DNA of 64,000 bases from Malaciobacter mytili LMG 24559 (lineage in GTDB: Bacteria > Campylobacterota > Campylobacteria > Campylobacterales > Arcobacteraceae). The stretch is from assembly GCF_003346775.1 (NCBI RefSeq), contig NZ_CP031220.1, forward strand, positions 1 through 64,000, read 5' to 3'. Position 1 is the stretch's first letter. Each line of letters begins with the position of its first letter. A model generated the notes under the pieces. The model was not told the DNA's origin, did not search any database, and saw nothing but the letters and a program-made list of their open reading frames with translations. The position numbers were made by a program, and so were the translations under genes. This document shows positions 14,826 to 46,131 of this stretch, piece by piece.

Positions 14826-14902
14826 TAGTCATATGACTTATAAAATTTACTGTCCCAAAATGGGACAGTAAATAAGGGAGAGAATTAAAACGATAAGTTT
14901 TT

Positions 14903-14922
14903 CCTTGAAAGAGGTTTTTTTT
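14903..14922 (+). terminator. Intrinsic terminator in repeat copy 1
   Basis: CCTT-GAAA-GAGG hairpin followed by eight T. The stem is short but the GAAA tetraloop and T8 tract are convincing. It would stop transcripts of the upstream operon before the repeat's own promoter; equivalent sequence is in all four copies. Confidence 0.65.
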
Positions 14923-15048
14923 ATATATATAAACAGACTAAAAAACAGACAAAGAACAATAAATATAATACTCAAATCTCAAAAGAAACACTAAGTAATA
15001 TTTAACAAATAATTAGCTATATTAATAGTATTCATTTTTTGAATTATC

Positions 15049-15054
15049 TATAAT
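15049..15054 (+). promoter_or_regulatory. -10 box TATAAT in repeat copy 1
   Basis: Perfect TATAAT in a T/A-rich stretch. No clear -35, which is usual for sigma-70 promoters of Campylobacterota. Transcription would start near 15062, just before the structured RNA. Present in all four copies; copy 3 lacks one following AAT triplet. Confidence 0.55.
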
Positions 15055-15069
15055 AATAATAGATATAAG

Positions 15070-15245
15070 TTTGTTGCGAGAGCAATAAGCTGTGCCAAAA
15101 AGGCAAATGGAGTAGAGATACATCCAAAAGGGCAAAAGTTTGTAAACTATAAGATAGAAGTCTTGTAGCCCAGGTGAGAAACCAAAAGAAGTTTGCGAAG
15201 GTATAGTCTATAATCTAAATAATTAGATTGTAGAGTGTTTCAGAG
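15070..15245 (+). ncRNA. Candidate structured RNA, copy 1
   Basis: Helices seen: TTGC-GAGA-GCAA (15074-15085); TGCC-A5-GGCA (15093-15105); TGGA GTA-GAGA-TAC A TCCA (15108-15126); a three-way junction closed by GGGC (15130) and GCCC (15168), holding AGTTT/AAACT and AAGA/TCTT; GGT-GAGAA-ACC (15173-15183); and CTATAATCTAA / TTAGATTGTAG (15208-15233). Three GAGA loops of GNRA type and A-rich joints suggest a compact fold. Every copy is nearly identical, so covariation cannot be judged. GAAGGTATAGTC at 15198 resembles a group I intron S element, but the rest of that core is missing. Confidence 0.6.
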
Positions 15246-15246
15246 T

Positions 15247-15350
15247 AGTTGCTCAAAAGAGCTAACCCGTAAAGGGATACAAAAGATTGTATTCCTTACG
15301 GGATACTACTATTTGTATCCTTTTAGTTTTTAACTTATAAAAGGATAAAA
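15247..15350 (+). promoter_or_regulatory. Leader L7 in repeat copy 1
   Basis: Best-formed leader. P1: GCTC-AAAA-GAGC. P2: CCCGTAA(A)GGGATACAA / TTGTATTCCTTACGGG, 16 bp with one bulge. P3: GGATAC / GTATCC. Arm TATCCTTTT is perfectly complementary over 9 bp to AAAAGGATA, the SD region of the methyltransferase gene, so P3 and SD occlusion are mutually exclusive. Confidence 0.8.
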
Positions 15351-16760
15351 ATGAGTGCAAATAACTTAATAAAAACTTATTCTTCAAAAATTGGTGATAA
15401 AGACGGTACAAAAAGAGTTTGGATTGAATCACAAAAAATTCATGAAACATTAATGGCTGAACATTTAAAGTATGAACCAGAGTATGATTTTGAAAATAAA
15501 AAAATTATACTTAGACCAGGTTTTACACATTCAATTATAGTAAGACAAAAAAATAATATGCCTGTAATTGATATTGTTAATAGGAATATTAATAAAATTT
15601 TTGATGGTTATAATCATATTGTTATAAAATTATATAATGATGAAATCATTATTGAACCATTAAAAGAAGAAACAGAACAAAAAAGAGCAAAAGAAAAATC
15701 AAACAATAAAACTCCAACAATGATTGAAATATTTGCAGGTGGTGGAACTTTAGTTAAATCTTTAAAAGATGCAGGTATAAAACCAATTGCAGCAATTGAG
15801 CTTGAAGATAAATATCTTCAAAATACAGAGTTAAATAATCCAAATATTATTACTTATTGTGGAGATTTAGCAAAATTAGATATTTCATTATTGCCTGATG
15901 CAGATATTATAAGTGCAGGAATTCCTTGTGAAGGTTATAGTCAAGCACAAACTAAAGCAGAAAAGTTTGAAGCTCATCCTACGGGTTCATTAGGTTTTTA
16001 TGTGTTGAAAATTATAGATGCTATAAGACCTGCAGTTGTATTGATAGAAGAGGTACCAAATTTTAAAAATTCAGCGATAGCTACAATGGCAAGATATGTT
16101 CTTACTTCAATGGGATACAATATTTCAGAAACAGAATTGATTGGTTCTGATTATGGTTCTCTTACAAAAAGAAAAAGATATTGTATGGTTGCTTCAATTA
16201 AAAAAGGTTTCAAATTTCTTGATTCTTACAAAATAGAGTGTAATAAAACAGTTAAGGATATCTTAGAAATTCCTATTGATGATAGAGAATGGCATTCAAT
16301 ACATAATTCAAGGCTTGCAAGTTTTTATTTAAAAAAAGAAGCAGAACATATTGCAAAAGGTAATGGATTTAGAATAGCTAGAACATCAATTAATGATAAT
16401 ATTACTGCTACTATAACAAAAGGTCATTATTTGCAAAGAATAACTGAACCAATACTGGTTCATCCTGAAGATTCAAATTGTTTTTCTATTTTTACACCTA
16501 GAGAAATTGCAAGAATTAATAGTCTTCCTGATGATTTTAAATTGCCTGAAGCAAAGACTACAAGTGGAGAAATTATAGGTCAAGGTGTTTGCTATAATGC
16601 TTTTAATGCAGTAGGTAAAATGATTGTTCAACACTTTAATAGTATTGAATATGATGAAGAAAAAGAGAAACTATTAGCTTTTAAAGAAAAAATAAATACA
16701 ACTAATGTTGATTATACAAATGATCAAATTAGTTGCTTTTTTAATGGAACACTTTTTTAA
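15351..16760 (+). CDS. C5-cytosine DNA methyltransferase 1
   Basis: 469 aa. Methylates cytosine C5. Motif I IEIFAGGGTL (F128-T133), motif IV GIPCEGYS with catalytic C193, motif VI LIEEVPNF (E233; the usual ENV is EEV), motif VIII TKRKRY, motif X IGQGVCYNAF. The recognition region between VIII and IX is short. Residues 1-120 form an extra domain (PVIDIVNRNINKIF, IVIKLYNDEIIIEPL) that recurs in the methyltransferases at 22857 and 41131. The start MSAN is contributed by repeat copy 1. Ends FFNGTLF, a possible weak clamp tail. No cognate endonuclease nearby. Confidence 0.88.
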   Translation: MSANNLIKTYSSKIGDKDGTKRVWIESQKIHETLMAEHLKYEPEYDFENKKIILRPGFTHSIIVRQKNNMPVIDIVNRNINKIFDGYNHIVIKLYNDEIIIEPLKEETEQKRAKEKSNNKTPTMIEIFAGGGTLVKSLKDAGIKPIAAIELEDKYLQNTELNNPNIITYCGDLAKLDISLLPDADIISAGIPCEGYSQAQTKAEKFEAHPTGSLGFYVLKIIDAIRPAVVLIEEVPNFKNSAIATMARYVLTSMGYNISETELIGSDYGSLTKRKRYCMVASIKKGFKFLDSYKIECNKTVKDILEIPIDDREWHSIHNSRLASFYLKKEAEHIAKGNGFRIARTSINDNITATITKGHYLQRITEPILVHPEDSNCFSIFTPREIARINSLPDDFKLPEAKTTSGEIIGQGVCYNAFNAVGKMIVQHFNSIEYDEEKEKLLAFKEKINTTNVDYTNDQISCFFNGTLF

Positions 16761-16863
16761 ACAACTTAAAAAAATAATTTAATGTTGCCAATAAGAAATA
16801 ATTGAACCTTGTTTTAATTTATAACTTTAAGGCTAATACTAATATGAAAGAAAAAGAGAAAAA

Positions 16864-17304
16864 ATGAAAAAGATTAAAAAAATAATCAAAAAACTTTTAA
16901 GATATACTAAAGATAAAAATATTGAAGAGTTAATTGGCTATTCTAAAAAATATAATGCAATTATAACAATTGCTTGTAAAGATTATCCTTTTAATTTCGA
17001 AATACAAGATATGCTAAATAACCTAGATAAAATTCAATGGGATAAACTTCTAAAGTATTTTGAAAATGGTCTGTCTTATCTTAAAGAACTTGAGATTTTT
17101 GAAGAAAAAATTATTCTTCAAAATATAGAAAGAGCTAATGAAGATAATTCATTAGTTGTTGAATTAAAATATAAGGGAATGAGTATTCATAACCCATATT
17201 ATGATGAATCAGGTATTGAAAGTGTAGAACCTTTTAAATATTATAAGAAATATTATGTTTATTGGTTAAAAAGAATAGAAGTTTTATATTTAGAAAGTAT
17301 TTAA
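16864..17304 (+). CDS. Hypothetical protein
   Basis: 146 aa with a very basic start (MKKIKKIIKKLLRYTKDK) and a more acidic body. Upstream 16784-16863 contains GTTGCC and GGCTAAT like the leaders but no stable P2, so it is at most a decayed leader; SD is a weak GAGA run. Not recognised. Confidence 0.55.
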   Translation: MKKIKKIIKKLLRYTKDKNIEELIGYSKKYNAIITIACKDYPFNFEIQDMLNNLDKIQWDKLLKYFENGLSYLKELEIFEEKIILQNIERANEDNSLVVELKYKGMSIHNPYYDESGIESVEPFKYYKKYYVYWLKRIEVLYLESI

Positions 17305-17377
17305 AAAAATTAGATACTTAAAAAATGTAAATGTTGTCAATTGAAGTATTGAACTTTTTTTGAGAATTTTATAAATT

Positions 17378-17453
17378 AACACCTAATGAGGGTATATTTT
17401 TACCCTCATGGGTACTAATATATCTCTCATTTATTATAAAAAAAGGAAAATAA
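17378..17453 (+). promoter_or_regulatory. Leader L9
   Basis: P2: TGAGGGTA / TACCCTCA inside ACC / GGT. A GGGTA arm and a TATCTCTC arm follow, but P3 and the SD pairing (SD AAAAGGAAAA) are weaker than elsewhere. P1 is replaced by GTTGTC...  without a clear partner. Confidence 0.55.
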
Positions 17454-19271
17454 ATGAAAGAATTAAAGATAAATCAAAAATTGTTATGTATTAAAGTAGA
17501 AGAGAACTCACCTTTCGAAATTGATAGAATTTATCCAATTACTAAAATTATTAATGAAAATAAAATTGAATTGGCAAATAAAGTATGTTCTCACTATTCT
17601 AATTCAGAAATTTTTGAGTATTTCAAAGTTTTAGAAATAGAAGATATTAAGGATATTAATAACAAAGCATTAAAAATTAAAGAAGCTTTTGAAGCACAAA
17701 AAGAAATAGATGACAATTTATCTACAGATAGTGATTTCACTTCAGATAATATCTTACTTGAACAAGCAATAGAATTTTTAATTGAAGATGATACTTCTTT
17801 AATTGAAGAAGAATTAAGATTTATAGTAGATACATTAGATATTACAATGGTTGAAGTTTGTAGTTGTTGCAAAACAATTATACTACCTGATGATGAGTGC
17901 TATATGGATTCTAAAAATAATAATGTACCGTTATGTGATAGTTGCTCTGTATATAATGAAGAAACTGACCTTTATGAAAGAGTATTAAGTGAAAAAATCT
18001 TAATAGAAAATACAAATTGTGAATTTTCTAATAGTTTACGAAGAGATAAAAAAGAATTTTTTTTAATGAACTTAAATAAGTATCTTTATTCAAATAAACA
18101 CAATAACATTTTAACTTTTAATGAAAGTGATTTAGATGGATTCTTAGAAGAAGAGCAAATGCCATTTAAAATATGCGATAATTGTAAAAAGATTGAAGAG
18201 AATGTCAACTCTTATGATTTTAGTAATTATTCATTTAGTGATTATAATTTGTATGATGCTGAAGAATATTATAAAATAGATACATTATCAAGGCAAAATG
18301 TTATTTGTCAAGATTGCTATGATTTATACTCTAAAGTTAAATATTTAAGTTTAGAAGAACTTACAAATAGATTTAATGAAAACAAAATGTTTTATAGAGT
18401 AGGGGAAACAGTTATTATTAAAAAGAATAAAGATAATAAAAATCATGTAAGAAAAATTATTGCTATTGACGAAAAAAATCATACTTATACTTTAGAAGGA
18501 AATTTAGTCATTGAATATAATTTACTACATTGTCCTCTTAATGAAGCAATTGTAAGAGAATACAATGAATTCTTAATAGACAAAGATGATATTGATATTG
18601 ATGAAGTTGATGAGTACATACAATATAATTGGGAAGGTTTTCCTGAAATTGAATATGCCTTTGAAAAGTTTGGGTATAGAAATGAATTTATTGAATACCT
18701 AAAATCAAAAAAATTATTAACTATTGGATTATATTTAGAAGACAATGGTTTGGATGAAATTAATATTGTACGAAATAGTATAATTGAGACAATTTTTTGT
18801 ATGAATGAAGAAACACAAAAAATTCCATCTTATGATGAATTATATAATACAGATATTTTAGATGAAAGTTGGATTCTTAGTGAAGACTATGAAAATTACA
18901 CATTGGCATCTATTTTGAGTATCATTAATGATAGGGTTTATTCATTCTATGATACATTAAAGCAGCTAAATGAGTATAAAAAAAGCTTATTATATTCTTA
19001 TAAAGAAATACCTGAGCACTTTACTTCTAAAGAACTTATATCTAAAATAAAAGAAGTTAATGATACTTGTAAAATTAAGATTACTAATGTACTGGATACT
19101 GAGAATATTGTTTCTATAAATATATCATTTGACAATAAAGTAAATTTAAGTACATTTGAAATGCACTTAAAAGTTAAAATGGATAAAGAATTTAATAGAA
19201 TTGATAATCTTATTACTGCAATAAGACAAGCAATAAAATATAATGTTGTAGAACTTTGTCTTCATAACTAA
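17454..19271 (+). CDS. Large acidic protein with two zinc-binding clusters
   Basis: 605 aa, not recognised. Two cysteine clusters suggest zinc sites: C136/C138/C139 with C161/C164 (CSCC ... CDSC), and C241/C244 with C285/C288 (CDNC ... CQDC). The rest is strongly acidic, with a DDIDIDEVDEYIQYNWEG stretch near 375-395. N-terminal 60 residues look beta-rich. Cytoplasmic. Acidic character plus zinc ribbons could indicate a nucleic-acid or protein adaptor; that is inference only. Confidence 0.65.
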   Translation: MKELKINQKLLCIKVEENSPFEIDRIYPITKIINENKIELANKVCSHYSNSEIFEYFKVLEIEDIKDINNKALKIKEAFEAQKEIDDNLSTDSDFTSDNILLEQAIEFLIEDDTSLIEEELRFIVDTLDITMVEVCSCCKTIILPDDECYMDSKNNNVPLCDSCSVYNEETDLYERVLSEKILIENTNCEFSNSLRRDKKEFFLMNLNKYLYSNKHNNILTFNESDLDGFLEEEQMPFKICDNCKKIEENVNSYDFSNYSFSDYNLYDAEEYYKIDTLSRQNVICQDCYDLYSKVKYLSLEELTNRFNENKMFYRVGETVIIKKNKDNKNHVRKIIAIDEKNHTYTLEGNLVIEYNLLHCPLNEAIVREYNEFLIDKDDIDIDEVDEYIQYNWEGFPEIEYAFEKFGYRNEFIEYLKSKKLLTIGLYLEDNGLDEINIVRNSIIETIFCMNEETQKIPSYDELYNTDILDESWILSEDYENYTLASILSIINDRVYSFYDTLKQLNEYKKSLLYSYKEIPEHFTSKELISKIKEVNDTCKIKITNVLDTENIVSINISFDNKVNLSTFEMHLKVKMDKEFNRIDNLITAIRQAIKYNVVELCLHN

Positions 19272-19290
19272 GATTTGATTGTTCATTTGT

Positions 19291-19378
19291 TTTACCCTTC
19301 TATACGGGGTTGTAAATATTCCCGTATAGATATTGGGAATATTGATTTTTTTTAAAATTAATTACTGAGGTAAAAAAG
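19291..19378 (+). promoter_or_regulatory. Leader L10
   Basis: P2 is TCTATACGGG / CCCGTATAGA, 10 perfect base pairs. The following GGGAATATTGA-T8 is terminator-like rather than a clear P3. SD is GAGGT. Sequence of P2 is unrelated to other leaders though its place is the same. Confidence 0.55.
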
Positions 19379-19672: not shown

Positions 19673-19684
19673 AAAGGGAAATGT

Positions 19685-19762: not shown

Positions 19763-19807
19763 GTTGCTTTAAAGTTTAGACTACAAAAATTATAAAGGAA
19801 AAAAATA

Positions 19808-20497: not shown

Positions 20498-20663
20498 TTC
20501 TTCTATTACAGTAATTAAAACACAACAATAAAGTGAGACTTTTACTTAAAAGGATATGTAATATCTAAAAATAACTATAGAAGAGTTATATAGGTATAAT
20601 TTTTTACTTTCCAATAGTATATAAATTAAATATTCTAATATTTACTAAAAATGTAAATAAAAA
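20498..20663. other. Short gene-free AT-rich gap
   Basis: No gene, promoter match or hairpin that I can support; contains AAAAGGATATG directly followed by a stop codon, perhaps the scar of a lost small gene. Leader L11 starts immediately after. Confidence 0.4.
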
Positions 20664-20745
20664 AGTCGCTTATTAAAGCTAACCCACAAGGGAATATTCT
20701 TATCCCTTGTGGATAAATATATTCCTTTTAATATAAAGGAAAACA
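20664..20745 (+). promoter_or_regulatory. Leader L11
   Basis: P1: GCTT / AAGC. P2: CCACAAGGGA / TCCCTTGTGG, 10 perfect pairs. P3: GGATA / TATTCC. Arm TTCCTT complements SD AAGGAA exactly. GUUGC is GUCGC here. Confidence 0.75.
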
Positions 20746-21354: not shown

Positions 21355-21376
21355 AAAATAAATAAAAAGGCAAAAA

Positions 21377-21745: not shown

Positions 21746-21968
21746 GTACTGTCCCAAAATGGGACAGTAAATAAGGGAGAGAATTAAAACGATAAGTTTT
21801 TCCTTGAAAGAGGTTTTTTTTATATATATAAACAGACTAAAAAACAGACAAAGAACAATAAATATAATACTCAAATCTCAAAAGAAACACTAAGTAACAT
21901 TTAACAAATAATTAGCTATATTAATAGTATTCATTTTTTGAATTATCTATAATAATAATAGATATAAG

Positions 21969-22144
21969 TTTGTTGCGAGAGCAATAAGCTGTGCCAAAAA
22001 GGCAAATGGAGTAGAGATACATCCAAAAGGGCAAAAGTTTGTAAACTATAAGATAGAAGTCTTGTAGCCCAGGTGAGAAACCAAAAGAAGTTTGCGAAGG
22101 TATAGTCTATAATCTAAATAATTAGATTGTAGAGTGTTTCAGAG
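21969..22144 (+). ncRNA. Candidate structured RNA, copy 2
   Basis: Identical in sequence to copy 1 through the helices listed there, as far as I can read. Confidence 0.6.
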
Positions 22145-22145
22145 T

Positions 22146-22249
22146 AGTTGCTCAAAAGAGCTAACCCGTAAAGGGATACAAAAGATTGTATTCCTTACGG
22201 GATACTACTATTTGTATCCTTTTAGTTTTTAACTTATAAAAGGATAAAA
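22146..22249 (+). promoter_or_regulatory. Leader L7 in repeat copy 2
   Basis: Same P1, P2, P3 and 9-bp arm-to-SD complementarity as in copy 1, placed before the 204-aa gene. Confidence 0.8.
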
Positions 22250-22864
22250 ATGAGTGCAAATCTTAAAATTAATCAAGATATGTCTTCAAAGAACTATGAA
22301 ATTGTTGAAATAAATCAACATAGACTTACAGTTTTTGAAATGTTCGAAAATAGGAATTCTGCCAATACATATATTGAAAACTTAAATAGTAAATCATCAA
22401 TACAAAAATTAATTAAAGAAAAAAAATATAATCTTTGGATTGGTGGTATATGTTTAGATTGTAAAAATCTAAGTTTTCGTGAAATGTATAAGCTCTCAAA
22501 ACAATATGAACAAGATGATTATGATGTACTAATTTTAAATGATAATAATCATCTAATCAATAAAGAAGTGATTACTTTAAATTTAACAAATTTAGAAGTT
22601 TATCTATATGTAAACTTTTATGTACAGAAGAAATCTAAATTAAAAGATTTAAAACCTATTATAAAAGATGGTATTGTTACAGCAAAATTTAATTTAATCA
22701 ATAATCAAATTTTCTATAATATAGAGAATACAAAGAATTTTAGAACAGAATTGAAAGCTTTAAAAATAGGTAGCGTCAAATTTGATTTAACATTAAATAA
22801 ATTGAAAGAAGATGATTTAGCTATATTAAGAAGCATGATTATAAAAGGAGAATTACATGTGTAA
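22250..22864 (+). CDS. Hypothetical protein with MSAN start
   Basis: 204 aa. N-terminal four residues come from repeat copy 2. WIGGICLDCKNLSFREMYKL holds a C-x-x-C pair. C-terminal third looks beta-rich. It overlaps the methyltransferase gene by 8 bp with GGAG as internal SD, so the two proteins are made together and may cooperate. Not recognised. Confidence 0.6.
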   Translation: MSANLKINQDMSSKNYEIVEINQHRLTVFEMFENRNSANTYIENLNSKSSIQKLIKEKKYNLWIGGICLDCKNLSFREMYKLSKQYEQDDYDVLILNDNNHLINKEVITLNLTNLEVYLYVNFYVQKKSKLKDLKPIIKDGIVTAKFNLINNQIFYNIENTKNFRTELKALKIGSVKFDLTLNKLKEDDLAILRSMIIKGELHV

Positions 22865-24257
22865 TATTCCTAATATAATTACAAAACAGTTAAAATTACA
22901 ACCTTCGCAAAATGGCAAAAAATTAGTTATTTCAACAAATTGGTTACCTTTATTTGGCTTCGAGTATGGAGTTAAAATTGTTGAAGAATTAATAGGTCCT
23001 GGTAAAGGTTTATTAATAAGACTTGCAAATGAAAATGATAGTAAAATTAAAAAAGTTTATCAAAGAGAGTATAAAACAAGGAAAAATAATCCTTTAGAAA
23101 CTTTACTTGATATAAGAAGTCAAAAGTTAATAAATCAAGCCTTCCCTGAAGAAACAAAAAATGTCCATATTACTTTTAAAAAAGGATTAATTGAAATTAA
23201 ACCTATTGCAAATAAAGTATATGGTGTTATTCAAAAGTTTAAGAAATTAAAAAATCCTCTAACTGCTACTCTTGCTTGTAGTTCTGGTATTGATGGTTTT
23301 TCACTACAAGAGAATAAATTTCAAATAGATACATTAATTGAGTATAGACCTCATGAAAAAAGAGATAAAAAAGATTTAAGTGAAACTGGAGCATTAAATG
23401 CTTTAGACAATTTAAATATAAATACTTTAATAAATGAAGATATTATGACTTTAGACCTTGATAGAATAGAAAAATTAACAAATATTAGTAAAAACACACT
23501 TTATCATGTATCGTTACAATGTGATGATTTTTCGAATGTTAAAGCTTCTTCTTTAAAAAATAAATCATTAGATGAAGGAAGTTCAACATTAGATATGGTA
23601 TTTGATGCATTAACTTTTGCTAATAAATTTTTACCTCCAACAATATTAATAGAAAATGTAAAAGGATTTAAGAATTCAGATGCAGGAAAAATTCTTGTGT
23701 CAAGATTAAAAAGATTAGGTTATGAAATAAAACATGAAATATTTGATAGTAGAGATTTTGGTGGACTTACATCAAGAGTTAGATACTATTTAATAGCTAC
23801 ATTGTTGCCATTTGATTATAATTTGCCAAAAGTAACTTTTAGAAATACTAATGAAATTTGGGATACATATATTGAACCTTATATTGTATCAGGTGAAGCA
23901 AGAGAAGTAACATTTAGTAAATCTTTACAGGATGGATTAAAGACAAATAGAATTAGACTTATTAAAAGAGATTCTTTATATAGTCCTACTTTTCTAAAAT
24001 CACAAGATAGAATGGCTAAAGATTCAGTGGTTATACAAGATGAGAAAAGAGAAAATAAACTTTTTTTTCCTTCAAATGAAATGATGGCTAGATTAATGTC
24101 TATACCAAATGAATTTACTTTTAAAACTTGTAGCAAAACTATAGAGTCAGAAATAATAGGGCAATCAATTGATTATTTACTTCATAATGTTCTCATAAAA
24201 TCAATTAAAGATTATTTACTTTTTGCACATGCAAAATTAAATAATAGATTATTTTAA
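22857..24257 (+). CDS. Divergent C5-cytosine methyltransferase 2
   Basis: 466 aa. Motif IV has SLQCDDFS with C222, so the proline before the catalytic cysteine is replaced by glutamine (Q221). Motif VI ILIENVKGF (E266-V268) is canonical, motif VIII GGLTSRVRYYLIA and motif X EIIGQSIDYLLHN are present. Motif I is degenerate (LACSSGIDGF). The N-terminal 140 residues match the extra domain of the methyltransferases at 15351 and 41131 (PLETLLDIRSQKLI, VHITFKKGLIEIKPI). Ends LNNRLF. Catalytic activity is uncertain; it may depend on the co-translated 204-aa protein. Confidence 0.78.
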   Translation: MCNIPNIITKQLKLQPSQNGKKLVISTNWLPLFGFEYGVKIVEELIGPGKGLLIRLANENDSKIKKVYQREYKTRKNNPLETLLDIRSQKLINQAFPEETKNVHITFKKGLIEIKPIANKVYGVIQKFKKLKNPLTATLACSSGIDGFSLQENKFQIDTLIEYRPHEKRDKKDLSETGALNALDNLNINTLINEDIMTLDLDRIEKLTNISKNTLYHVSLQCDDFSNVKASSLKNKSLDEGSSTLDMVFDALTFANKFLPPTILIENVKGFKNSDAGKILVSRLKRLGYEIKHEIFDSRDFGGLTSRVRYYLIATLLPFDYNLPKVTFRNTNEIWDTYIEPYIVSGEAREVTFSKSLQDGLKTNRIRLIKRDSLYSPTFLKSQDRMAKDSVVIQDEKRENKLFFPSNEMMARLMSIPNEFTFKTCSKTIESEIIGQSIDYLLHNVLIKSIKDYLLFAHAKLNNRLF

Positions 24258-24827: not shown

Positions 24828-24865
24828 ATTAATGAAAAAATAGAACTAAGAAAAATTAAGTAACT

Positions 24866-24964
24866 TGTTGCAAAAAAATGCTAACCCACTAGGGATAAAA
24901 ACTATCCCTATTAAAGGGAAGTGTTTATCCTTTAATTAATGAAAAATTATTATAAAGGTAAAAA
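24866..24964 (+). promoter_or_regulatory. Leader L12
   Basis: P1: GCA / TGC, then TAACCC. P2: TAGGGATA / TATCCCTA. P3: GGGA / TCC; alternatively the first GGGATA can pair with the last TATCC. Arm CCTTTA complements TAAAGG of the SD. Confidence 0.68.
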
Positions 24965-32836: not shown

Positions 32837-33074
32837 TAGTTTAAATTGTAGAAAAGCAAATAAAGAAGAAGAAAAAAATATTTTAAAAGCTTTGTGTACT
32901 AAAGTAAATGAATATTTTTTTAATGGTAAAAAATTTGGCTCAATTTATGAAGTTTATAAATATTGTAAAAAAAACAAAATATGTAATGGAACTATAAAAC
33001 ATAAGTATGGTAATTGGGGTACTGTTAAAAGTTTAATATTAATGAAAGAAAAAGAAGTAATTAAATATTTCTAG
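32826..33074 (+). CDS. Hypothetical small basic protein
   Basis: 82 aa from the ATG at 32826, with AAGGA 5 nt before it; a TTG five codons upstream is less likely. Very lysine-rich (KYCKKNKICNGTIKHKYGNWG). The sequence pattern from residue 38 resembles a small DNA-binding fold but I cannot name it. Its stop codon TAG is the first part of leader L15. Confidence 0.55.
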   Translation: MQISSLNCRKANKEEEKNILKALCTKVNEYFFNGKKFGSIYEVYKYCKKNKICNGTIKHKYGNWGTVKSLILMKEKEVIKYF

Positions 33075-33169
33075 TTGCTCTTAGAGCTGCTTAAATCCCA
33101 ATTGGGAGTTTAGGAAATTTCTAACTCCCAATTATGGGAGTTATTTTCCTTATATAAAAAGGAATTTAC
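33072..33169 (+). promoter_or_regulatory. Leader L15
   Basis: P1: GCTC-TTA-GAGC. P2: CCCAATTGGGAGTT / AACTCCCAATTATGGG. P3: GGGA / TTCC. Arm TTCCTT is complementary to SD AAGGAA. The element begins exactly at the stop codon of the upstream gene (TAG-TTGC). Confidence 0.75.
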
Positions 33170-35442: not shown

Positions 35443-35665
35443 AATTTACTGTCCCAAAATGGGACAGTAAATAAGAGAGAGAATTAAAACGATAAGTTTT
35501 TCCTTGAAAGAGGTTTTTTTTATATATATAAACAGACTAAAAAACAGACAAAGAACAATAATTATAATACTCAAATCTCAAAAGAAACACTAAGTAATAT
35601 TTAACAAACAATTAGCTATATTAATAGTATTCATTTTTTGAATTATCTATAATAATAGATATAAG

Positions 35666-35841
35666 TTTGTTGCGAGAGCAATAAGCTGTGCCAAAAAGGC
35701 AAATGGAGTAGAGATACATCCAAAAGGGCAAAAGTTTGTAAACTATAAGATAGAAGTCTTGTAGCCCAGGTGAGAAACCAAAAGAAGTTTGCGAAGGTAT
35801 AGTCTATAATCTAAATAATTAGATTGTAGAGTGTTTCAGAG
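35666..35841 (+). ncRNA. Candidate structured RNA, copy 3
   Basis: All helices noted for copy 1 are kept unchanged; the copy-3 differences fall outside the RNA, which hints that the RNA part is under stronger constraint. Confidence 0.6.
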
Positions 35842-35842
35842 T

Positions 35843-35946
35843 AGTTGCTCAAAAGAGCTAACCCGTAAAGGGATACAAAAGATTGTATTCCTTACGGGAT
35901 ACTACTATTTGTATCCTTTTAGTTTTTAACTTATAAAAGGATAAAA
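35843..35946 (+). promoter_or_regulatory. Leader L7 in repeat copy 3
   Basis: Identical to copy 1 leader, placed before the DndC-like gene. Confidence 0.8.
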
Positions 35947-37776
35947 ATGAGTGCAAATCCTAATAAAAAATTCAATACAGTACTTGTACAAACTATTAAA
36001 AATGATATAGAAAATTTCTTAGAAAATATATCAAGTTTTAATATAATAGGCTTTAATGCACCAATTATCTTAAAACATATAGATACTTATGCTCAATTGA
36101 TATACTTGTATAATTATGATGATAGACCTTTCTCCGTTGCTTATAGTGGCGGTAAAGATTCTACTGTTACATTGGATGTTGTTTTTAAATCACTTCTTTT
36201 ACATAAATTTATTTATAAAAAGATTAATCAAAAAAAAACTTATATTGTTTTTTCAGATACATTATTAGAAATGGATCCAATAATAATAGGTATATTAAAT
36301 TCAATTGAAGAATTGAAGGAATTTTCAAAAAAATACGATTTGAATGTAGAAGTCTTAAAAGTTGCTCCTATTATAAAAAATACATTTTTTTCATTGTTGA
36401 TTGGGAAAGGCTATTTGGCCCCAAGAAAAGATAATCGCTGGTGTACAGACCGCATGAAAATTTTGCCTCAAAAAAAAGCAATATTATCAATACTAAAAAA
36501 TAATAAAAATGGTTTTATTGCAATCACAGGACAAAGGCAAGATGAATCAATTGATAGAAAAAAAAGAATGGAACAACTTACAATAGATGGCTCATTTAAA
36601 GAACATGAATTCAAAAATTGTAATTTATATGCACCAATAGAATATTGGAATTCTAATGATGTTTGGAATCATATATATAATCATAGATTAGATTGGGTAA
36701 ATGCAAATGAATTAGGTAGAATTTATGCTGAAGCTGCAAATGATGGGGATGAATGTAAAAGTCTTTTAGAAGGTTTTGAAACTGGTTTAACTCCTGGTTG
36801 TGGTAAGTCTGCAAGATATGGTTGTTGGGTGTGTTTATTATTTGAAAAAGATAAAACACTTAATAATTTAACACATCATTATGACTATTTAAAATATATG
36901 GAAGACTTTCGTAATTGGTTAGCACAATTTAGATATGCTGAATGGAATGATAACAGAGATATTTTTATTCATGGGAAACATAGGATGAAAAAATATGATA
37001 TGAATAATCATAGAAAAGGTATGCAAATTCCAGGTGGATATAATCTTAATTTTAGAAAACAAGTATTAATAAGATTGTTAGAAACTGAAGAAAAAGTAAT
37101 ATCTGAAAGAAAAATTCCATTAATAACTGATGAAGAATTAGCTTATATCCAAGAAATTTGGATTGAAGATGGTGATTTAGAATTATCAGTTTTAAAAATT
37201 GCAAAAAATAGAAAATTTAAACACTTAATTAATCCAATGTATTTTAAAGTTCTTAAATCTGTTGAACAGATGAAAGACTATTCTAAACCTCATCCATACC
37301 ATATAGTAAATTATACTTGGAAATGGATTTACGATTTAGATAATAAACTTGCATTTGATACCTCAAAATTTTGTGAAAGATATTTTTGTCAAATGGCAAT
37401 TCAATTAGAAAGAAACAATTTTGATTCTTTCAATATAATGAAAACATTAATTGATAATAACTATAAATTTTCAAGATATTTAGCAATAAAGTTAATTAAA
37501 AAGTTGCCACTAGAGACAAAAATGCATTTTGTTGATAAAGCTAAGGAAAACTACATTAGAGAAGAATGGAAAGAAGATAAAATAGGTTTTCTAACTTTTC
37601 TAGGTATGTTTTATCAAGGAGAAATCAAAATACCAAAAGAGAAAAATCTTTTCGGCTTTAATAGTGAATACTATGAACATTTTGAAGCATTAAAGGAGTT
37701 TAAAAAGAAAGAAGACATTATTCTTTGTGAAAAAATATCGCTAAAAGACAAAATGAGATATTTTGATAATTGGTAA
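35947..37776 (+). CDS. DndC-like sulfurtransferase / PAPS-reductase-family protein
   Basis: 609 aa. ATP-pyrophosphatase fold with P-loop AYSGGKDSTVTLD (S67-T73). DndC-type features follow: RWCTDRMKILP (C166), AITGQRQDESIDRKKR, YAPIEYWNSNDVWNHI, and a cysteine cluster CGKSARYGCWVC (C285, C293, C296) then EKDKTLNN. In known DndC these cysteines bind an iron-sulfur cluster and the enzyme activates DNA for phosphorothioation. Residues 380-609 are an extra C-terminal region. DndA, DndB, DndD and DndE are not in the window. The substrate could be DNA phosphorothioate or another thio- or nucleotide modification. Start MSANP from repeat copy 3. Confidence 0.82.
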   Translation: MSANPNKKFNTVLVQTIKNDIENFLENISSFNIIGFNAPIILKHIDTYAQLIYLYNYDDRPFSVAYSGGKDSTVTLDVVFKSLLLHKFIYKKINQKKTYIVFSDTLLEMDPIIIGILNSIEELKEFSKKYDLNVEVLKVAPIIKNTFFSLLIGKGYLAPRKDNRWCTDRMKILPQKKAILSILKNNKNGFIAITGQRQDESIDRKKRMEQLTIDGSFKEHEFKNCNLYAPIEYWNSNDVWNHIYNHRLDWVNANELGRIYAEAANDGDECKSLLEGFETGLTPGCGKSARYGCWVCLLFEKDKTLNNLTHHYDYLKYMEDFRNWLAQFRYAEWNDNRDIFIHGKHRMKKYDMNNHRKGMQIPGGYNLNFRKQVLIRLLETEEKVISERKIPLITDEELAYIQEIWIEDGDLELSVLKIAKNRKFKHLINPMYFKVLKSVEQMKDYSKPHPYHIVNYTWKWIYDLDNKLAFDTSKFCERYFCQMAIQLERNNFDSFNIMKTLIDNNYKFSRYLAIKLIKKLPLETKMHFVDKAKENYIREEWKEDKIGFLTFLGMFYQGEIKIPKEKNLFGFNSEYYEHFEALKEFKKKEDIILCEKISLKDKMRYFDNW

Positions 37777-37790: not shown

Positions 37791-37880
37791 TTGTTGCTCA
37801 TAGAGTTAACCCATAAGGGGAAATATATTTTTCCTCTTATAGAGGTTAATATATTCCTAAAAGTATTCAAAGGAGTAATT
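37791..37880 (+). promoter_or_regulatory. Leader L16
   Basis: P1: GCTC-ATA-GAGT. Outer TAACC / GGTTA encloses P2 ATAAGGGGAAA / TTTTCCTCTTAT (one G-U). Arm ATTCCT can pair with AGGAGT containing the SD (one G-U). Confidence 0.68.
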
Positions 37881-39623: not shown

Positions 39624-39633
39624 TAAATATAAT

Positions 39634-39719
39634 TAGTTGCTCACAAAGAGCTAACCCATAAGGGATAATCTTATCCCGAAGGGATAGCATTATCTTATAT
39701 TTTGAGAAAGTGAGAAATT
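39634..39719 (+). promoter_or_regulatory. Leader L17
   Basis: P1: GCTC-ACAAA-GAGC. P2: AAGGGATAA / TTATCCC with outer CCC / GGG. P3: GATA-GCAT-TATC. SD before ATG 39720 is weak (GTGAGA) and its pairing with the P3 arm is not convincing. A TATAAT at 39628-39633 directly precedes the element and could be a -10 box. Confidence 0.65.
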
Positions 39720-39986: not shown

Positions 39987-39987
39987 T

Positions 39988-40175: not shown

Positions 40176-40220
40176 AGTTTTATCCTTTTAGATAATTATA
40201 GCAAATATATAAAATAATAT

Positions 40221-40305
40221 CAATGCTAATAAAAGCATAACCCAAAAGGGATAAATTATTCCATTTTGGGATAATTATCCTTAATAAAAAAATAAGGAAA
40301 AGAAA
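40221..40305 (+). promoter_or_regulatory. Leader L18
   Basis: P1: ATGCT / AGCAT, then AACCC. P2: CCCAAAAGGGATAA / TTATTCCATTTTGGG, 14 pairs with a bulged A. P3: GGATAATTATCC. Arm TCCTTA is the exact complement of SD TAAGGA. Confidence 0.77.
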
Positions 40306-41028: not shown

Positions 41029-41037
41029 TTTATATAT

Positions 41038-41130
41038 AGTTGCTCATATAGAGCTAACCCATAAGGGATAAATTATCCCTTGTGGATAGTTCTATTCCTT
41101 TAAAGTAAAACTTATAAAAAAAGGAATTAT
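41038..41130 (+). promoter_or_regulatory. Leader L19 (methyltransferase 3)
   Basis: P1: GUUGCUC / GAGC-U-AAC with one bulged U. P2: CCATAAGGGATAA / TTATCCCTTGTGG, 13 continuous pairs. P3: GGATAG / CTATTCC. Arm ATTCCTTT is the exact 8-base complement of AAAGGAAT, the SD of the next gene. Confidence 0.8.
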
Positions 41131-42477
41131 ATGTCAGCAAATATAATATTAGAAGATAAAGTAAATAATAAAATAGAACCATTTAAAAAAATTATTAAAC
41201 CTTTGAGGGATTTACCAGGTGGAAATAAGGGTTTATGGTTAAATAATCTTAGTTTAAAAAAGAGTATGGAAGCAGGAGACACTGTAAATATTTCTTATGA
41301 CTATGATAAAAAAATCGTAGTTGTTGAAAAAACTGAATTATTAGGTAATCATATAATATCTTATAGAAAAAGTGATATAAAAAAAACTCCAATATTAGAT
41401 ATTAAAAATAAAAGTATTACTGAACTTTTTAAAAATGTAGAAAAAGTAGAAATTCAGTTATTTAAAAATAAATTGATTATAAAAACTGCTACTACTGAAG
41501 AGTTAAGAAATCAAAGAAAACAAATAGGATTTAAGACATTCGAACTGTTTTGTGGAGGTGGTACATTAACTCAAATGTTTAAACAAGCAGGTTTTACTCC
41601 AATTGGTGGATTAGATATTGAGAATAAATTTTTAAATATGTTTGAACATAATCATAAAGAATCAAAATATACTATTTTAAGTTCATTGGAAGATATTGTT
41701 CCAAGTGATTATCCAAAAAATGTAGATATTGCTTTAATTGGTATACCTTGTGTACCTTATACTAAAGCAAATATAAATTTAACAAAAGCATTAATAAATT
41801 ATGAAAATGGAATTGCAACTGAAAAAGAAATGAAACTTGTTAGGCAAAAAGAAGATGCTGAAACAATGACATTCTTTGTCCTTGAAGCAATTAGAGCAAT
41901 GAATGTAAATACGGTAATCATTGAAGAAGTTGTTGAATATTCAAAAACAGAAGCTTGTCAATGGTTAAGAGTTATGCTTAAAAAATTTGGATATCACATT
42001 AGTGAAACTATTGCGACTGGTTCTCATTCAAAGAGAAAAAGATGGGCTCTTGTTGCAAATATGAATAAAAAAATTAACCTTGAAAATTTAATTCCAAATT
42101 CTAATAAAACAATTGAAGACTTGTTAGAAACTCCAATTGATAAAAGAGAATGGAAAACAATTGATGAGGTCCCTAGAGTATTAGCTGCTAGTAAAAAAGA
42201 TAAAGTAGGTATTAGAACAGTATCTCCAAGTGATATAAAATCTAATACATTTACTACTCATGGAACAAGATCTACAGAACCAATTTTAAAACATCCTACT
42301 AAAGAGTTATATTCAGAATTTACAAATAAAGAAATTGCAAATATTCATGGTTTAAATAACTATGAACTTTCAAATGTAAAAACTTTAAATAGAAAAATCT
42401 TAGGGCAGGGTGTTACTGATATGTTCTATCATATTGCATTAAGACTAAAAAATAGTATAGAAAAGTATGGAGCATAA
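41131..42477 (+). CDS. C5-cytosine DNA methyltransferase 3
   Basis: 448 aa. Motif I FELFCGGGTL (F140-T145), motif IV GIPCVPYT with catalytic C207, motif VI IEEVVEYS (EEV in place of ENV, as in methyltransferase 1), motif VIII SKRKRWALVA, motif X KILGQGVTDMFYH. The N-terminal domain (PILDIKNKSITELF, VEIQLFKNKLIIK) is shared with the other two. It also begins MSAN but with different codons (TCA GCA AAT) and without a 515-bp repeat in front, so the MSAN start is older than the repeat's spread, or is selected. Overlaps no neighbour; next ATG is 2 bp after... the stop. Confidence 0.87.
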   Translation: MSANIILEDKVNNKIEPFKKIIKPLRDLPGGNKGLWLNNLSLKKSMEAGDTVNISYDYDKKIVVVEKTELLGNHIISYRKSDIKKTPILDIKNKSITELFKNVEKVEIQLFKNKLIIKTATTEELRNQRKQIGFKTFELFCGGGTLTQMFKQAGFTPIGGLDIENKFLNMFEHNHKESKYTILSSLEDIVPSDYPKNVDIALIGIPCVPYTKANINLTKALINYENGIATEKEMKLVRQKEDAETMTFFVLEAIRAMNVNTVIIEEVVEYSKTEACQWLRVMLKKFGYHISETIATGSHSKRKRWALVANMNKKINLENLIPNSNKTIEDLLETPIDKREWKTIDEVPRVLAASKKDKVGIRTVSPSDIKSNTFTTHGTRSTEPILKHPTKELYSEFTNKEIANIHGLNNYELSNVKTLNRKILGQGVTDMFYHIALRLKNSIEKYGA

Positions 42478-42478
42478 A

Positions 42479-43198
42479 ATGAAAATCTATTTTGCGTGCC
42501 CAACTGGTAAAAGAAGAGATAATATTTTGAAAGAGTACGGTTATGAATTTGGAGCTTGTTTAACAAGAGATACTTTTAATCATATTACTGCAAGAACAAT
42601 GCATTGGTTCTTCGATAATGGTGCATTTTCTGATTGGCAAAATAAAAGACCTTTTAATGCCCAAAAGTTTATAGACCAAATGTGGAGAATTGAATCAGAA
42701 ATAAGATTTGGAAAACCAATATCAAATGATTTAGATTTTTCTTCTATGGAAAGAGGTGAACCTAAAAAATACAAATTAGTTTGCCCTGAATTTGTAGTAT
42801 GTCCTGACTTGCCTGCAAGAGGTAATGAATCCTTGGAGTTTTCAAGAAAATGGATAGATTACTTAGAAGATACCTTCCCTTACTATGATTATTTTTTAGC
42901 AGTTCAAAATGAAATGAGTTTTGAATTAGTAGAAGATGATTTGAAAAATAATAGGTTTAGTGGTCTTTTTGTTGGTGGAACTAAAGAATGGAAATACAAA
43001 GAAGCATCAATATGGGTGGAATTAGCACATAAATATGGTATTCCTTGTCATATTGGTGGAATTGGAAATAGAAAATCAATACTTTGGGCTAAATCAATTG
43101 GTGCTGATAGTGTTGATAGTGGAGTGGCAATGATACATCCTAAACATTTAGCTGAGATATTAAATATCAAAGATGACATGTTTTGGAATGTAGCATAA
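42479..43198 (+). CDS. TGT/DpdA-like TIM-barrel protein (candidate base-exchange enzyme)
   Basis: 239 aa from ATG 42479 (GGAG 6 nt upstream). FFDNGAFSDW, FVVCPDLPARGNESLEFSRKW, YFLAVQNEM, GLFVGGTKEWKYKEA and IPCHIGGIGNRKSILWAKSIGADSVDSG follow the order of a TIM barrel and resemble phage tRNA-guanine-transglycosylase relatives, including DpdA proteins that insert 7-deazaguanine into DNA. The resemblance is from motif memory. Coupled to C5-methyltransferase 3, so a role in DNA base modification is plausible. No queuosine or deazaguanine synthesis genes are visible here. Confidence 0.5.
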   Translation: MKIYFACPTGKRRDNILKEYGYEFGACLTRDTFNHITARTMHWFFDNGAFSDWQNKRPFNAQKFIDQMWRIESEIRFGKPISNDLDFSSMERGEPKKYKLVCPEFVVCPDLPARGNESLEFSRKWIDYLEDTFPYYDYFLAVQNEMSFELVEDDLKNNRFSGLFVGGTKEWKYKEASIWVELAHKYGIPCHIGGIGNRKSILWAKSIGADSVDSGVAMIHPKHLAEILNIKDDMFWNVA

Positions 43199-43231
43199 TT
43201 AATTATTTAAAAAAATATAAAAGGAAAAAAT

Positions 43232-43960
43232 ATGTCAAATGAAGCAAAAGAATTAATATATGTATTAGAACAAAATGGTTTTATCCCTTTTGGATTAAAT
43301 ATGCCAATTAGTATGGTTATTGAAGATATTAGAGCTTGCAACTATAATTATTATGGTAATAAATATGCATCTTCAAATGAATTATTTGAAAATTCTGCTC
43401 TTTCAATTAAATTTAAACACAATCAAGTAGAAAATCCATTTTGGATAACTATTTTTAAAGGTGCAAATTATAGAGAAAAAGAAACTTTATTTGTTGCTGC
43501 AACTTTTAATGAAATTATTGATGAAAATAATAATTTCTGCAATTCAGAAAATACTTTTTATGCTAAAGATTGTATATCAAAAAGCAATGAACTCTTTGAA
43601 GGTATTGAGTCAATTAAAGAAGTATTAGCAGCATTTGAAACTACATTATTCTCTGGAAGTGAAGACAGTACTCCTATCTTTGAAGATAATTCTGATGCAT
43701 TGTATGATGTTATCGAAGAATTAAGAAGTTTATTAAAAGAAGAAACTTTAGATGCAGATGAAATTGAAAACCTTATTTATGAAAATAAAAAAATGGGTGA
43801 TTTCTTAGAACTTCTTGGATTTACTCCAGATGATATAACTACAAACATTATAAATGGTAGTGAAGATGAGTTAAAACAATTAGTTAAAGATATGAAACTT
43901 TCAAAAGATTGTCTTAAACAAGTTAATTGTAGACAAAAAAGTTATGATACTTCTATGTGA
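43232..43960 (+). CDS. Hypothetical acidic protein
   Basis: 242 aa, SD AAAGGAAA upstream. Acidic, helix-rich C-terminal half (DVIEELRSLLKEETLDADEIENLIYENKKMGDFLELLGFTPDDI). Soluble. Not recognised. Confidence 0.58.
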   Translation: MSNEAKELIYVLEQNGFIPFGLNMPISMVIEDIRACNYNYYGNKYASSNELFENSALSIKFKHNQVENPFWITIFKGANYREKETLFVAATFNEIIDENNNFCNSENTFYAKDCISKSNELFEGIESIKEVLAAFETTLFSGSEDSTPIFEDNSDALYDVIEELRSLLKEETLDADEIENLIYENKKMGDFLELLGFTPDDITTNIINGSEDELKQLVKDMKLSKDCLKQVNCRQKSYDTSM

Positions 43961-44025
43961 AATTATTAAACTAGTTAGTATCTTTAAACAAGTTTCAGAA
44001 GATGGTATAGATAATTTATTTATCT

Positions 44026-44313
44026 ATGCTGAATAATCTGATAGGGGTAAATAATGATATTTATAAAAAAACATTTTCTGAAAATCAGATTATTAGAACA
44101 GGTGTTTCGCATCAATTTGTAACTTCAATAAATGGCATAAAAGCAGAAGAATTGGCAAAGCAAATTGCTTTTAGAGAACATAAAAAAGTTTCTCAAATAA
44201 AAAAAATAACTGTTTGCTATGCAGGTAATGTTACATACAATGACAATCTAAGTGTAGGATGTATTGAAGAGTATTTTGCAACACTTGAAGATTATAAGAA
44301 AAATTTACAATAA
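44026..44313 (+). CDS. Hypothetical protein, start uncertain
   Basis: 95 aa as drawn. No good SD precedes the ATG at 44026; instead ATAGATAA / TTATCTAT forms a hairpin ending at that ATG. The same hairpin (ATAGATAATTTA / ATTATCTAT) occurs at 44601-44622 before the gene at 44656. Soluble, with IKAEELAKQIAFREHKKVSQIKKITVCY. May be a truncated gene. Confidence 0.45.
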   Translation: MLNNLIGVNNDIYKKTFSENQIIRTGVSHQFVTSINGIKAEELAKQIAFREHKKVSQIKKITVCYAGNVTYNDNLSVGCIEEYFATLEDYKKNLQ

Positions 44314-44329
44314 AGTTAAAAGGACTAAT

Positions 44330-44590
44330 ATGAATTTTAATGAAACTATATGCAGTAAAGGATTAAAAGTGGAATATATAAGAGGAAAAGAAAATATACA
44401 AAAAGTTTTAAAGTCTGGAACAAAACTTACTTCGGATGATTTTAAAAATCCGACAATAGAACACTTTGCTTATGATAAAGAAAATATTGGAACAACTTTT
44501 TCGCCTTATGTTGTAATAAATGGCAATACTTTTGTTAGATGTATGGACGATATTGACTACGAATGTAAAATGTTGAGAATTATACAATAA
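44330..44590 (+). CDS. Hypothetical protein
   Basis: 86 aa from ATG 44330, preceded by AAAAGGA. The longer frame begins inside the upstream gene without SD. VLKSGTKLTSDDFKNPTIEHFAYDKENIGTTF. Not recognised. Confidence 0.52.
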   Translation: MNFNETICSKGLKVEYIRGKENIQKVLKSGTKLTSDDFKNPTIEHFAYDKENIGTTFSPYVVINGNTFVRCMDDIDYECKMLRIIQ

Positions 44591-44655
44591 AGGACTTATC
44601 ATAGATAATTTAATTATCTATGTTGAAGAATAAATTTAAATTTTTGGAGAAAAAA

Positions 44656-45225
44656 ATGAGATTTTTATATGAATTAAATAGTGAAGAAATTAAAAAAGTA
44701 TTCTATGAAAATAGAAATAATTATATTGCTACAGCAATATTAAAACATAAAAATACACCAACGGAATTATTATTGAAAAATACTAATAATTATAATATTG
44801 TTCAAAATATATATCTAAAAGATGAGGTATATGAAAAAATATTAAAAGAAAAATATGAATGTATTGTTAGTATGGCTTGTAGAGTCTCACATACACCAAT
44901 CTGGTTTTTAGAAAAAGCGTTAGAAATATTTCCTAATAACTATGATGTAGAATATTCAATAGCAAGACTTTTAGATAGGAAATTAACAGATAATCTTTAT
45001 AAGAAGCTTTCATTATCTTCTCGTTGGGAAGTAAGAAGCTGTATTGCAAAAAATAAATGTGTACCTAAAAAATATCTTAGTGAACTTCAAAACGACATAG
45101 ATTCAAGAGTTTTAATAAGTGTAAAAGATAGATTAAATGAATCTGATTACAATATGGGAATAAAAAATTGGCGGGATGTTCCACAATTAAAAATTAATAT
45201 TGAAAGAGATGTATTATGTTCTTAG
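44656..45225 (+). CDS. HEAT/LRV-like repeat protein
   Basis: 189 aa from ATG 44656 (TTGGAG upstream). Repeating units with N.TP..LL or N.CVP.KYL and following helices (e.g. VRSCIAKNKCVPKKYLSELQNDIDSRVLISV) look like the leucine-rich-variant/HEAT type of alpha solenoid, a protein-binding scaffold. Partner unknown. Overlaps the next gene by 10 bp. Confidence 0.5.
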   Translation: MRFLYELNSEEIKKVFYENRNNYIATAILKHKNTPTELLLKNTNNYNIVQNIYLKDEVYEKILKEKYECIVSMACRVSHTPIWFLEKALEIFPNNYDVEYSIARLLDRKLTDNLYKKLSLSSRWEVRSCIAKNKCVPKKYLSELQNDIDSRVLISVKDRLNESDYNMGIKNWRDVPQLKINIERDVLCS

Positions 45226-45557
45226 GTAATACACAAAAGAAGCAGCTTATAAATGAATTGAAGTTAAATAATAGAGAAGATATAGTAAATAATATATTAG
45301 GGGATGAAACTAAATTTAAACATATCAAATTTACAGATGAAGATTCTCAACAAGTTGCAATTATGCTAGATGAAGATACATATATTTATTCACAACAAGT
45401 AAGTGATGACTATGATTGGCATTTAGATAATAAAAAAGACGGGAAGTATTATCTTACGGATACTATTAATTTAAACAATTATACAGAAGTTGAACAAAAT
45501 AATGAAGTTTCTTCATATTATGGCTCACTAGAAAGATTAAAAAATGATAGTTGCTGA
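45216..45557 (+). CDS. Hypothetical acidic protein
   Basis: 113 aa, start within the preceding gene. Acidic (KFTDEDSQQVAIMLDEDTYIY). Ends 38 bp before repeat copy 4; the end of the frame contains GATAGTTGCTGA, a relic of the leader start AGTTGC. Not recognised. Confidence 0.52.
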   Translation: MFLGNTQKKQLINELKLNNREDIVNNILGDETKFKHIKFTDEDSQQVAIMLDEDTYIYSQQVSDDYDWHLDNKKDGKYYLTDTINLNNYTEVEQNNEVSSYYGSLERLKNDSC

Positions 45558-45817
45558 ATGTATATTTGAAAATATGTTGTAAGATAATTTGGATTTACTG
45601 TCCCAAAATGGGACAGTAAATAAGGGAGAGAATTAAAACGATAAGTTTTTCCTTGAAAGAGGTTTTTTTTATATATATAAACAGACTAAAAAACAGACAA
45701 AGAACAATAAATATAATACTCAAATCTCAAAAGAAACACTAAGTAATATTTAACAAACAATTAGCTATATTAATAGTATTCATTTTTTGAATTATCTATA
45801 ATAATAATAGATATAAG

Positions 45818-45993
45818 TTTGTTGCGAGAGCAATAAGCTGTGCCAAAAAGGCAAATGGAGTAGAGATACATCCAAAAGGGCAAAAGTTTGTAAACTATAA
45901 GATAGAAGTCTTGTAGCCCAGGTGAGAAACCAAAAGAAGTTTGCGAAGGTATAGTCTATAATCTAAATAATTAGATTGTAGAGTGTTTCAGAG
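45818..45993 (+). ncRNA. Candidate structured RNA, copy 4
   Basis: Same helices as copy 1. Since there is no real gene directly behind this copy, keeping the RNA intact argues for a role of its own, or simply for recent duplication. Confidence 0.6.
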
Positions 45994-45994
45994 T

Positions 45995-46098
45995 AGTTGC
46001 TCAAAAGAGCTAACCCGTAAAGGGATACAAAAGATTGTATTCCTTACGGGATACTACTATTTGTATCCTTTTAGTTTTTAACTTATAAAAGGATAAAA
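45995..46098 (+). promoter_or_regulatory. Leader L7 in repeat copy 4
   Basis: Identical leader and SD, now in front of a 10-codon frame. Confidence 0.8.
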
Positions 46099-46131
46099 AT
46101 GAGTGCAAATCCTAAATCAATTTTATACTAA
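46099..46131 (+). pseudogene. 10-codon stub MSANPKSILY
   Basis: Directly downstream of repeat copy 4. Shares 18 of the first 19 bases with the exonuclease gene at position 1, then a stop. Most simply the scar of a deleted cassette gene; a regulatory leader peptide cannot be excluded because leader L20 follows 80 bp on. Confidence 0.6.

Follow-up and report, generated by a model that had tools for sequence, protein, structure and literature searches.

Plasmid DNA of Malaciobacter mytili LMG 24559 (contig NZ_CP031220.1) carries four near-identical direct repeats of about 515 bp in its first 64 kb (64,000 nucleotides, the window analyzed here). Their most convincing interpretation is that of operon heads, by which a gene block of ~54 kb, all on the + strand, is divided into five long transcription units. 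Strongly diverged versions of the final ~100 nucleotides (nt) of the repeat recur ahead of other genes in this block, and this module belongs to an undescribed structured-RNA family. We consider it probable that the repeats are operon heads of a conjugative plasmid and end in members of a two-state leader family, which controls a regulon for replication, recombination and DNA modification.

The contig of 170,445 bp resides beside a chromosome of 2.87 Mb. F-type transfer proteins (TraC, TraB, TraG, TraH) and a coupling protein are encoded in a minus-strand block at ~62-123 kb; ParB, a ParA-like protein and a Rep3-type initiator are encoded as well. Judged by these genes the element is a conjugative plasmid. 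A phage origin of the window was rejected in view of the transfer and Rep/Par genes present instead.

An earlier note on this DNA had described four repeats starting 1-38 bp behind the preceding stop codon and had implied a fifth copy before the exonuclease gene at position 1. The four repeats in the window (Table 1) are indeed 99-100% identical, the copy at 35447 differing by a few substitutions and a 3-nt deletion, and they start 22, 1, 4 and 38 bp past the preceding stops. The fifth copy exists, too. It spans the contig ends: plasmid positions 170135-170445 align with the repeat to the base preceding ATG, and window position 1 carries on with ATG AGT GCA AAT CCT AAA. Thus, the contig most likely is a circular plasmid. 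This copy lacks the 5' ~175 bp, i.e., the palindrome and the terminator-like part, and its identity sets in near the promoter-like region. Over the 3' ~300 nt, the part predicted to be transcribed, the five copies do not differ at all (100% identity); the rare differences are confined to the 5' ~210 bp.

The genes behind the five copies differ, as the earlier note had it: an exonuclease, a C5-methyltransferase, a pair of a 204-aa protein and a C5-methyltransferase, a DndC-like enzyme, and a 10-codon stub (MSANPKSILY-stop) which had been called empty. The notion that the repeats bound DNA-modification cassettes was not supported. Instead, they head five operons of mixed genes, each repeat opening a gene run of 6-15 kb right beyond the last stop of the prior run. 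Other methyltransferase genes (13308, 27970, 41131, 48657) are internal to operons and not immediately behind a repeat. The block encodes an exonuclease, RecT, SSB-like, primase-like, DnaN-like clamp and SNF2-like helicase proteins, several DNA methyltransferases and the DndC-like enzyme. This content resembles the establishment genes of other plasmids (PMC11541004), hence an establishment-type role is suggested.

The repeat combines a -10 region resembling that of a promoter with a leader that folds strongly (z = -9), a hairpin covering the ribosome binding site (RBS) and the first four codons. This agrees with the earlier description except for the terminator placed at its beginning, which is a TGTCCC-N5-GGGACA palindrome; a separate weak hairpin with T8 follows. 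Folding favors the + strand RNA over the opposite strand, with -47.2 versus -30.9 kcal/mol for the extra 5' domain and -87.3 versus -67.6 for the whole leader. Rfam yielded no match above the gathering threshold in the whole window, nor a notable one in a permissive search. A group I-like motif noticed by eye (GGUAUAGUC) was dropped because the repeat interrupts no gene and matches no Rfam intron.

Seventeen distinct leaders occupy 21 sites, i.e., 16 short leaders in the window and the five repeat copies. All are on the + strand, each immediately precedes a start codon, and all are located within 1-52.5 kb except the copy at the contig ends. A covariance model from 10 leaders (R1), for which RNAalifold gave a short CCC/GGG hairpin only, detected none elsewhere on the plasmid and recovered members outside its training set (37791-37865, E 2.6e-8; 49790-49855, E 3.8e-5). 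It was replaced by a second model, R2, with helix H1 and a nested H2. The members at 1242, 17360 and 33072 score weakly but agree with the family on inspection by eye. Most short leaders start at most ~60 nt from the preceding gene or inside its end. Because they start so close to the prior stop or overlap it, they are intercistronic elements and not promoters.

In the short members two helices compete for one strand. Helix B arises when the strand after H2 pairs with the 3' side of H1 plus the adjoining UAA, and it extends the CCC/GGG hairpin H2 downward. H1 (GCUC/GAGC type) and B both use the GAGCUA strand; since they share bases, they are mutually exclusive. The median gap between the computed H1 and B states is 2.9 kcal/mol. 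Across 34 distinct sequences, in an alignment fitted to the model, 11 of 15 H1/H2 pairs vary on both sides, and double-changed cells number 49, whereas shuffles give 17.3 +/- 3.3 and slid controls 8-18. For helix B the cognate duplex has -3.14 kcal/mol versus -1.77 kcal/mol when swapped (0/2000 permutations; 5/2000 within elements). The pairing of the Shine-Dalgarno (SD) sequence with its anti-SD strand, H3, likewise fits within each leader, with -6.97 for cognate and -5.58 for swapped partners (1/5000 permutations; 0/5000 within elements). RBS pairing is 0.73 versus 0.56 when the upstream sequence is shuffled, and higher in 35 of 43 leaders. In the well-aligned core pairs 24 G.U face 6 A.C; over all aligned cells this ratio is absent (29 versus 35) because the outer helix is misaligned in some rows. 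The anti-SD/SD fit, the RBS pairing, the G.U excess and the + strand folding together indicate a function in the sense RNA.

Several points weigh against a uniform two-state switch. Fitting the H1/H2 alignment to the model inflates the pair counts. The resting state is not the same throughout: computation favors the H1 state in 11 of 34 leaders and B in most others, and a few members (1242, 17360) have a weak H1 or none. The module of the repeat itself has no helix B; in its place AGUAGU/ACUACU closes a three-way junction of H1 and H2, and the long and short leader versions may work differently. Further, neither relaxase nor oriT was identified in Pfam, NCBIfam and PDB sequence searches; therefore, an establishment or leading-region role and a timing after transfer are read from gene content and layout.

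If the repeats are operon heads as proposed, each would end the previous operon, start the next from an identical, predicted promoter and place a structured leader of ~285 nt before the first gene. The leaders would hold the RBS in H3, and H1/B would constitute the sensor part. The H1/B switch, in a direction that we presume, would set whether H3, possibly also the terminator-like hairpin, blocks expression. One trigger common to the regulon would shift the H1/B balance, most plausibly while the plasmid establishes itself in a new host. At operon heads the repeat would add the promoter, the upstream terminator and palindrome, and the extra 5' RNA domain. Accordingly modeled, a leader would gate translation, perhaps also transcription. 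More tentatively, one may envisage a bistable leader family widespread in conjugative elements of Campylobacterales, in which one trigger would flip the competing helices of ~20 mostly intercistronic leaders per element and the head RNA at five operon starts would set the polymerase or the response to the trigger, i.e., a timed, RNA-based control of the replication, recombination and DNA-modification genes after transfer. We regard this extension as possible, yet short of probable.

The family is not restricted to this plasmid. R2 detects it in three more genomes of the host's family (G028, G019, G093) and in other Campylobacterales families (G262, G152 and G174, the last taken to be a Sulfurimonas), where the leaders likewise precede relatives of the genes of this plasmid, e.g., of the helicase 8512-10878 in G262. 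Within elements the leader copies are homogenized (G262, 98.7% over 76 nt; G174, 82-92% over ~100 nt). No significant leaders were found in the examined parts of Nitrosophilus pHRV44 and Campylobacter coli pCC001, with the primase as the only shared gene. An exact pattern search of viral contigs gave no genuine leaders; its matches were chance hits in GC-rich coding DNA. The DndC-like orthologue in G093 (63% identity) follows another short leader, and its N-terminus is longer and different; in G174 the orthologue is the second gene of an operon. Given these differing contexts, gene and leader are no fixed travelling pair. The idea that an MSAN protein start is mere overlap with the repeat was also rejected: gene 41131 has TCA for AGT, and a gene of G019 has ATGAGTGCAAAT behind a family leader.

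Table 1. Repeat copies, short leaders and parts of the 515-bp unit (window coordinates; parts are given for copy 1).
Feature	Position	Strand	Remarks
Repeat copy 1, 515 bp	14848..15362	+	heads operon starting with C5-methyltransferase 15351-16760 (Pfam DNA_methylase)
Repeat copy 2, 515 bp	21747..22261	+	heads operon: 204-aa protein 22250-22864, then C5-methyltransferase 22857-24257
Repeat copy 3, 512 bp	35447..35958	+	heads operon starting with DndC-like enzyme 35947-37776 (PADLOC DndC, E 7e-82)
Repeat copy 4, 515 bp	45596..46110	+	then 10-codon stub 46099-46131, short leader, gene 46300
End of fifth copy	1..12	+	first four codons, exonuclease gene 1-1251; remainder on plasmid 170135-170445
Palindrome TGTCCC-N5-GGGACA, candidate operator	14851..14867		also window 3319, 6491, 8455, 21750, 35450, 45599; plasmid 125637, 165816
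Weak terminator-like hairpin CCTTGAAAGAGG, then T8	14903..14922	+	from sequence
Promoter-like region	15030..15065	+	putative; -10 TATAAT (15049-15054) within palindrome TATCTAT-N7-ATAGATA
Extra 5' structured RNA domain	15066..15240	+	repeat copies only; by folding
Leader-family module in repeat	15244..15353	+	closing helix 15244-15249/15305-15310; H1 15251-15254/15259-15262; H2 15266-15302; RBS hairpin H3 15316-15325/15338-15347; ATG 15351
Short leader	1242..1328	+	before RecT gene 1329; E 0.0085
Short leader	3278..3371	+	before gene run with SSB
Short leader	6518..6617	+	before DnaN-like sliding clamp 6618-7670
Short leader	8415..8511	+	before SNF2/helicase-like 8512-10878
Short leader (weak)	17360..17453	+	before 17454; E 0.018
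Short leader	20663..20745	+	before 20746
Short leader	24865..24964	+	before 24965
Short leader	33072..33169	+	before 33170
Short leader	37791..37880	+	before 37881; E 2.6e-8, outside R1 training set
Short leader	39634..39719	+	before 39720
Short leader	40220..40305	+	before 40306
Short leader	41037..41130	+	before C5-methyltransferase 41131-42477, protein start MSAN (ATG TCA GCA AAT)
Short leader	46212..46299	+	before 46300
Short leader	49790..49865	+	before 49866; E 3.8e-5
Short leader	50189..50280	+	before 50281
Short leader	52448..52534	+	before 52535; E 1.9e-4

Much of this material can also be viewed as attenuation combined with processive antitermination: the leaders would be attenuators in long operons, and the 5' head domain would load the polymerase for read-through like conAn2/ConAn1 of pLS20 or the put/EAR RNAs. 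Of the 17 plus-strand terminator-like sites in 1-56 kb, 14 fall in leaders or repeats; a U-rich stretch (U 0.54) follows helix B and H2; the extra domain is restricted to the five operon heads; and pLS20 provides the precedent of an RNA-plus-protein antiterminator heading an operon with >20 terminators (PMC8955417). However, the U-rich stretch, which doubles as anti-SD, frequently amounts to a weak U-tract (UAUUCCUUUA), the terminator scan used a loose consensus, and no ConAn1- or NusG-like partner was recognized. We therefore judge this explanation to be somewhat unlikely. An RNA function of another kind, i.e., processing or stability elements such as RNase III sites between cistrons, appears highly improbable. 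In T7 early mRNA RNase III sites are located between the cistrons, and repeated intercistronic hairpins along long gene runs would suit such a role; yet a conserved competing helix B and an anti-SD/SD pairing are unexpected for simple processing sites, and many H2 stems have just 9-13 bp.

Two further proposals place the function in the DNA. The plug-in platform of the earlier note, in which identical repeats serve gene swapping behind ATG AGT GCA AAT via homologous recombination, is in our opinion quite doubtful. Parts of it stood up: five different genes follow identical DNA, one copy has a stub, leader copies are homogenized in other elements, and the DndC-like orthologue elsewhere follows a different leader. 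Against this, the 515-bp unit was seen here only. The search of phage and plasmid collections, which the earlier note had suggested, and of same-genus genomes gave no match outside this plasmid, and the 5' RNA domain had only short matches among 399 genomes of the order. Moreover, co-regulation through a shared head accounts for the identity without a recombination function, and a run of 6-15 kb, not a single gene, follows each repeat. Cassette exchange between plasmids through the repeat is hypothetical, and the RecT/exonuclease pair alone is no proof of recombination at the repeats. Even less credence can be given to single-stranded DNA promoters of the Frpo/ssi type, in which case the repeats would fold as part of the transferred strand and allow early expression in the recipient. 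The setting is inviting, since the plasmid is conjugative, SSB, methyltransferases and RecT resemble leading regions with several Frpo copies (PMC11541004), and two small palindromes are present in the promoter region. But folding favors the + strand RNA, the -10 region is outside strong stems, anti-SD and SD covary, many leaders are intercistronic with no space for a promoter, and the short leaders showed no conserved -35/-10 pair. The promoter region forms small hairpins only.

The TGTCCC-N5-GGGACA palindrome occurs nine times on the plasmid and not once on the 2.87-Mb chromosome, thus it may be an operator. An XRE-family regulator gene (125734-126468) has one copy ~80 bp upstream, and its product is a candidate autoregulated repressor. 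Other features of the element were recorded in passing. The plasmid has its own DnaN-like sliding clamp, and C-terminal QLxLF clamp-binding-like motifs occur in 4-5 of 51 proteins of the + block versus 0 of 102 elsewhere on the plasmid (genes 8512, 12281, 46473 and 48657; helicase, methyltransferase and others). The C-terminal part of the RecT gene contains a 45-bp tandem repeat of ~7 units (2073-2477). A 202-bp duplication (49600-49801/49999-50200) ends right before two successive leaders. Just right of the + block a nested long inverted repeat (54110-54280) precedes a 65-aa frame at 54247; it has no match to the leader model and may represent a further leader or else belong to a transfer origin. 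In the transfer block a TraC-like ATPase with a C-terminal EAL-like region (plasmid 96281-99772) and a GGDEF/EAL protein (84716-85954) are encoded, and at the end of this block a NACHT-domain protein (68120-70558). Three tyrosine recombinase genes are in tandem at 151360-155756.

How conjugative plasmids quickly switch anti-restriction and replication genes on, and then off, is an open question. Dozens of divergent leaders with measurable covariation make it possible to predict such a mechanism at the level of base pairs, and this in a bacterial order with little-studied plasmid biology. The covariance model is also usable for finding more conjugative elements and their establishment genes.

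Among known systems, the Frpo/ssi sequences in the leading regions of F and ColIb-P9 resemble the repeats in that several similar structured sequences precede genes for SSB, anti-restriction proteins and methyltransferases on conjugative plasmids (PMC11541004). They differ in that the structure here is in the sense RNA, including the RBS hairpin, and the promoter boxes are outside strong stems. The repeat was unmatched in a plasmid collection that includes F-like plasmids, by collection search and not by direct comparison with Frpo. EGeRS2 and the Reg repressor of p576 (PMC8708921) offer a parallel for a recurrent, element-specific palindrome that is found both at the repeats and before a plasmid helix-turn-helix gene. 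Here, however, ~180 bp separate the palindromes from the predicted -10 downstream, two palindromes are inside leader hairpins, and the regulator is of the XRE type, not ribbon-helix-helix. In conAn of pLS20 an RNA element heads a long operon in which terminator-like structures are numerous (PMC8955417), as here; the difference is five heads on establishment-type operons versus one on the conjugation operon, and no protein partner was identified here.

EGeRS1 of the Bacillus plasmid pLS20 consists of five near-identical structured sequences of 420-750 bp, each right before the RBS of one of five establishment operons that share a plasmid region; ~325 nt adjoining the RBS are conserved in all, and one copy lacks ~180 bp at its 5' end (PMC8708921). 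By our computation the copies are 93-98% identical to each other. EGeRS1 blocks read-through in an orientation-dependent manner by an unknown mechanism, and EGeRS1-B showed no promoter in its test (PMC8708921). R2 has no match in pLS20, and phylum and transfer system are different. The repeat here also differs by a promoter-like region and by short intercistronic relatives, none of which are described for pLS20. Common to both is that one structured sequence is present in several copies, each immediately before the RBS of an operon, the operons being clustered on a conjugative plasmid, with an establishment role that we infer for the present case. Thus, while the repeat is not classed as an EGeRS1, EGeRS1 of pLS20 is, by layout, its closest analogue.

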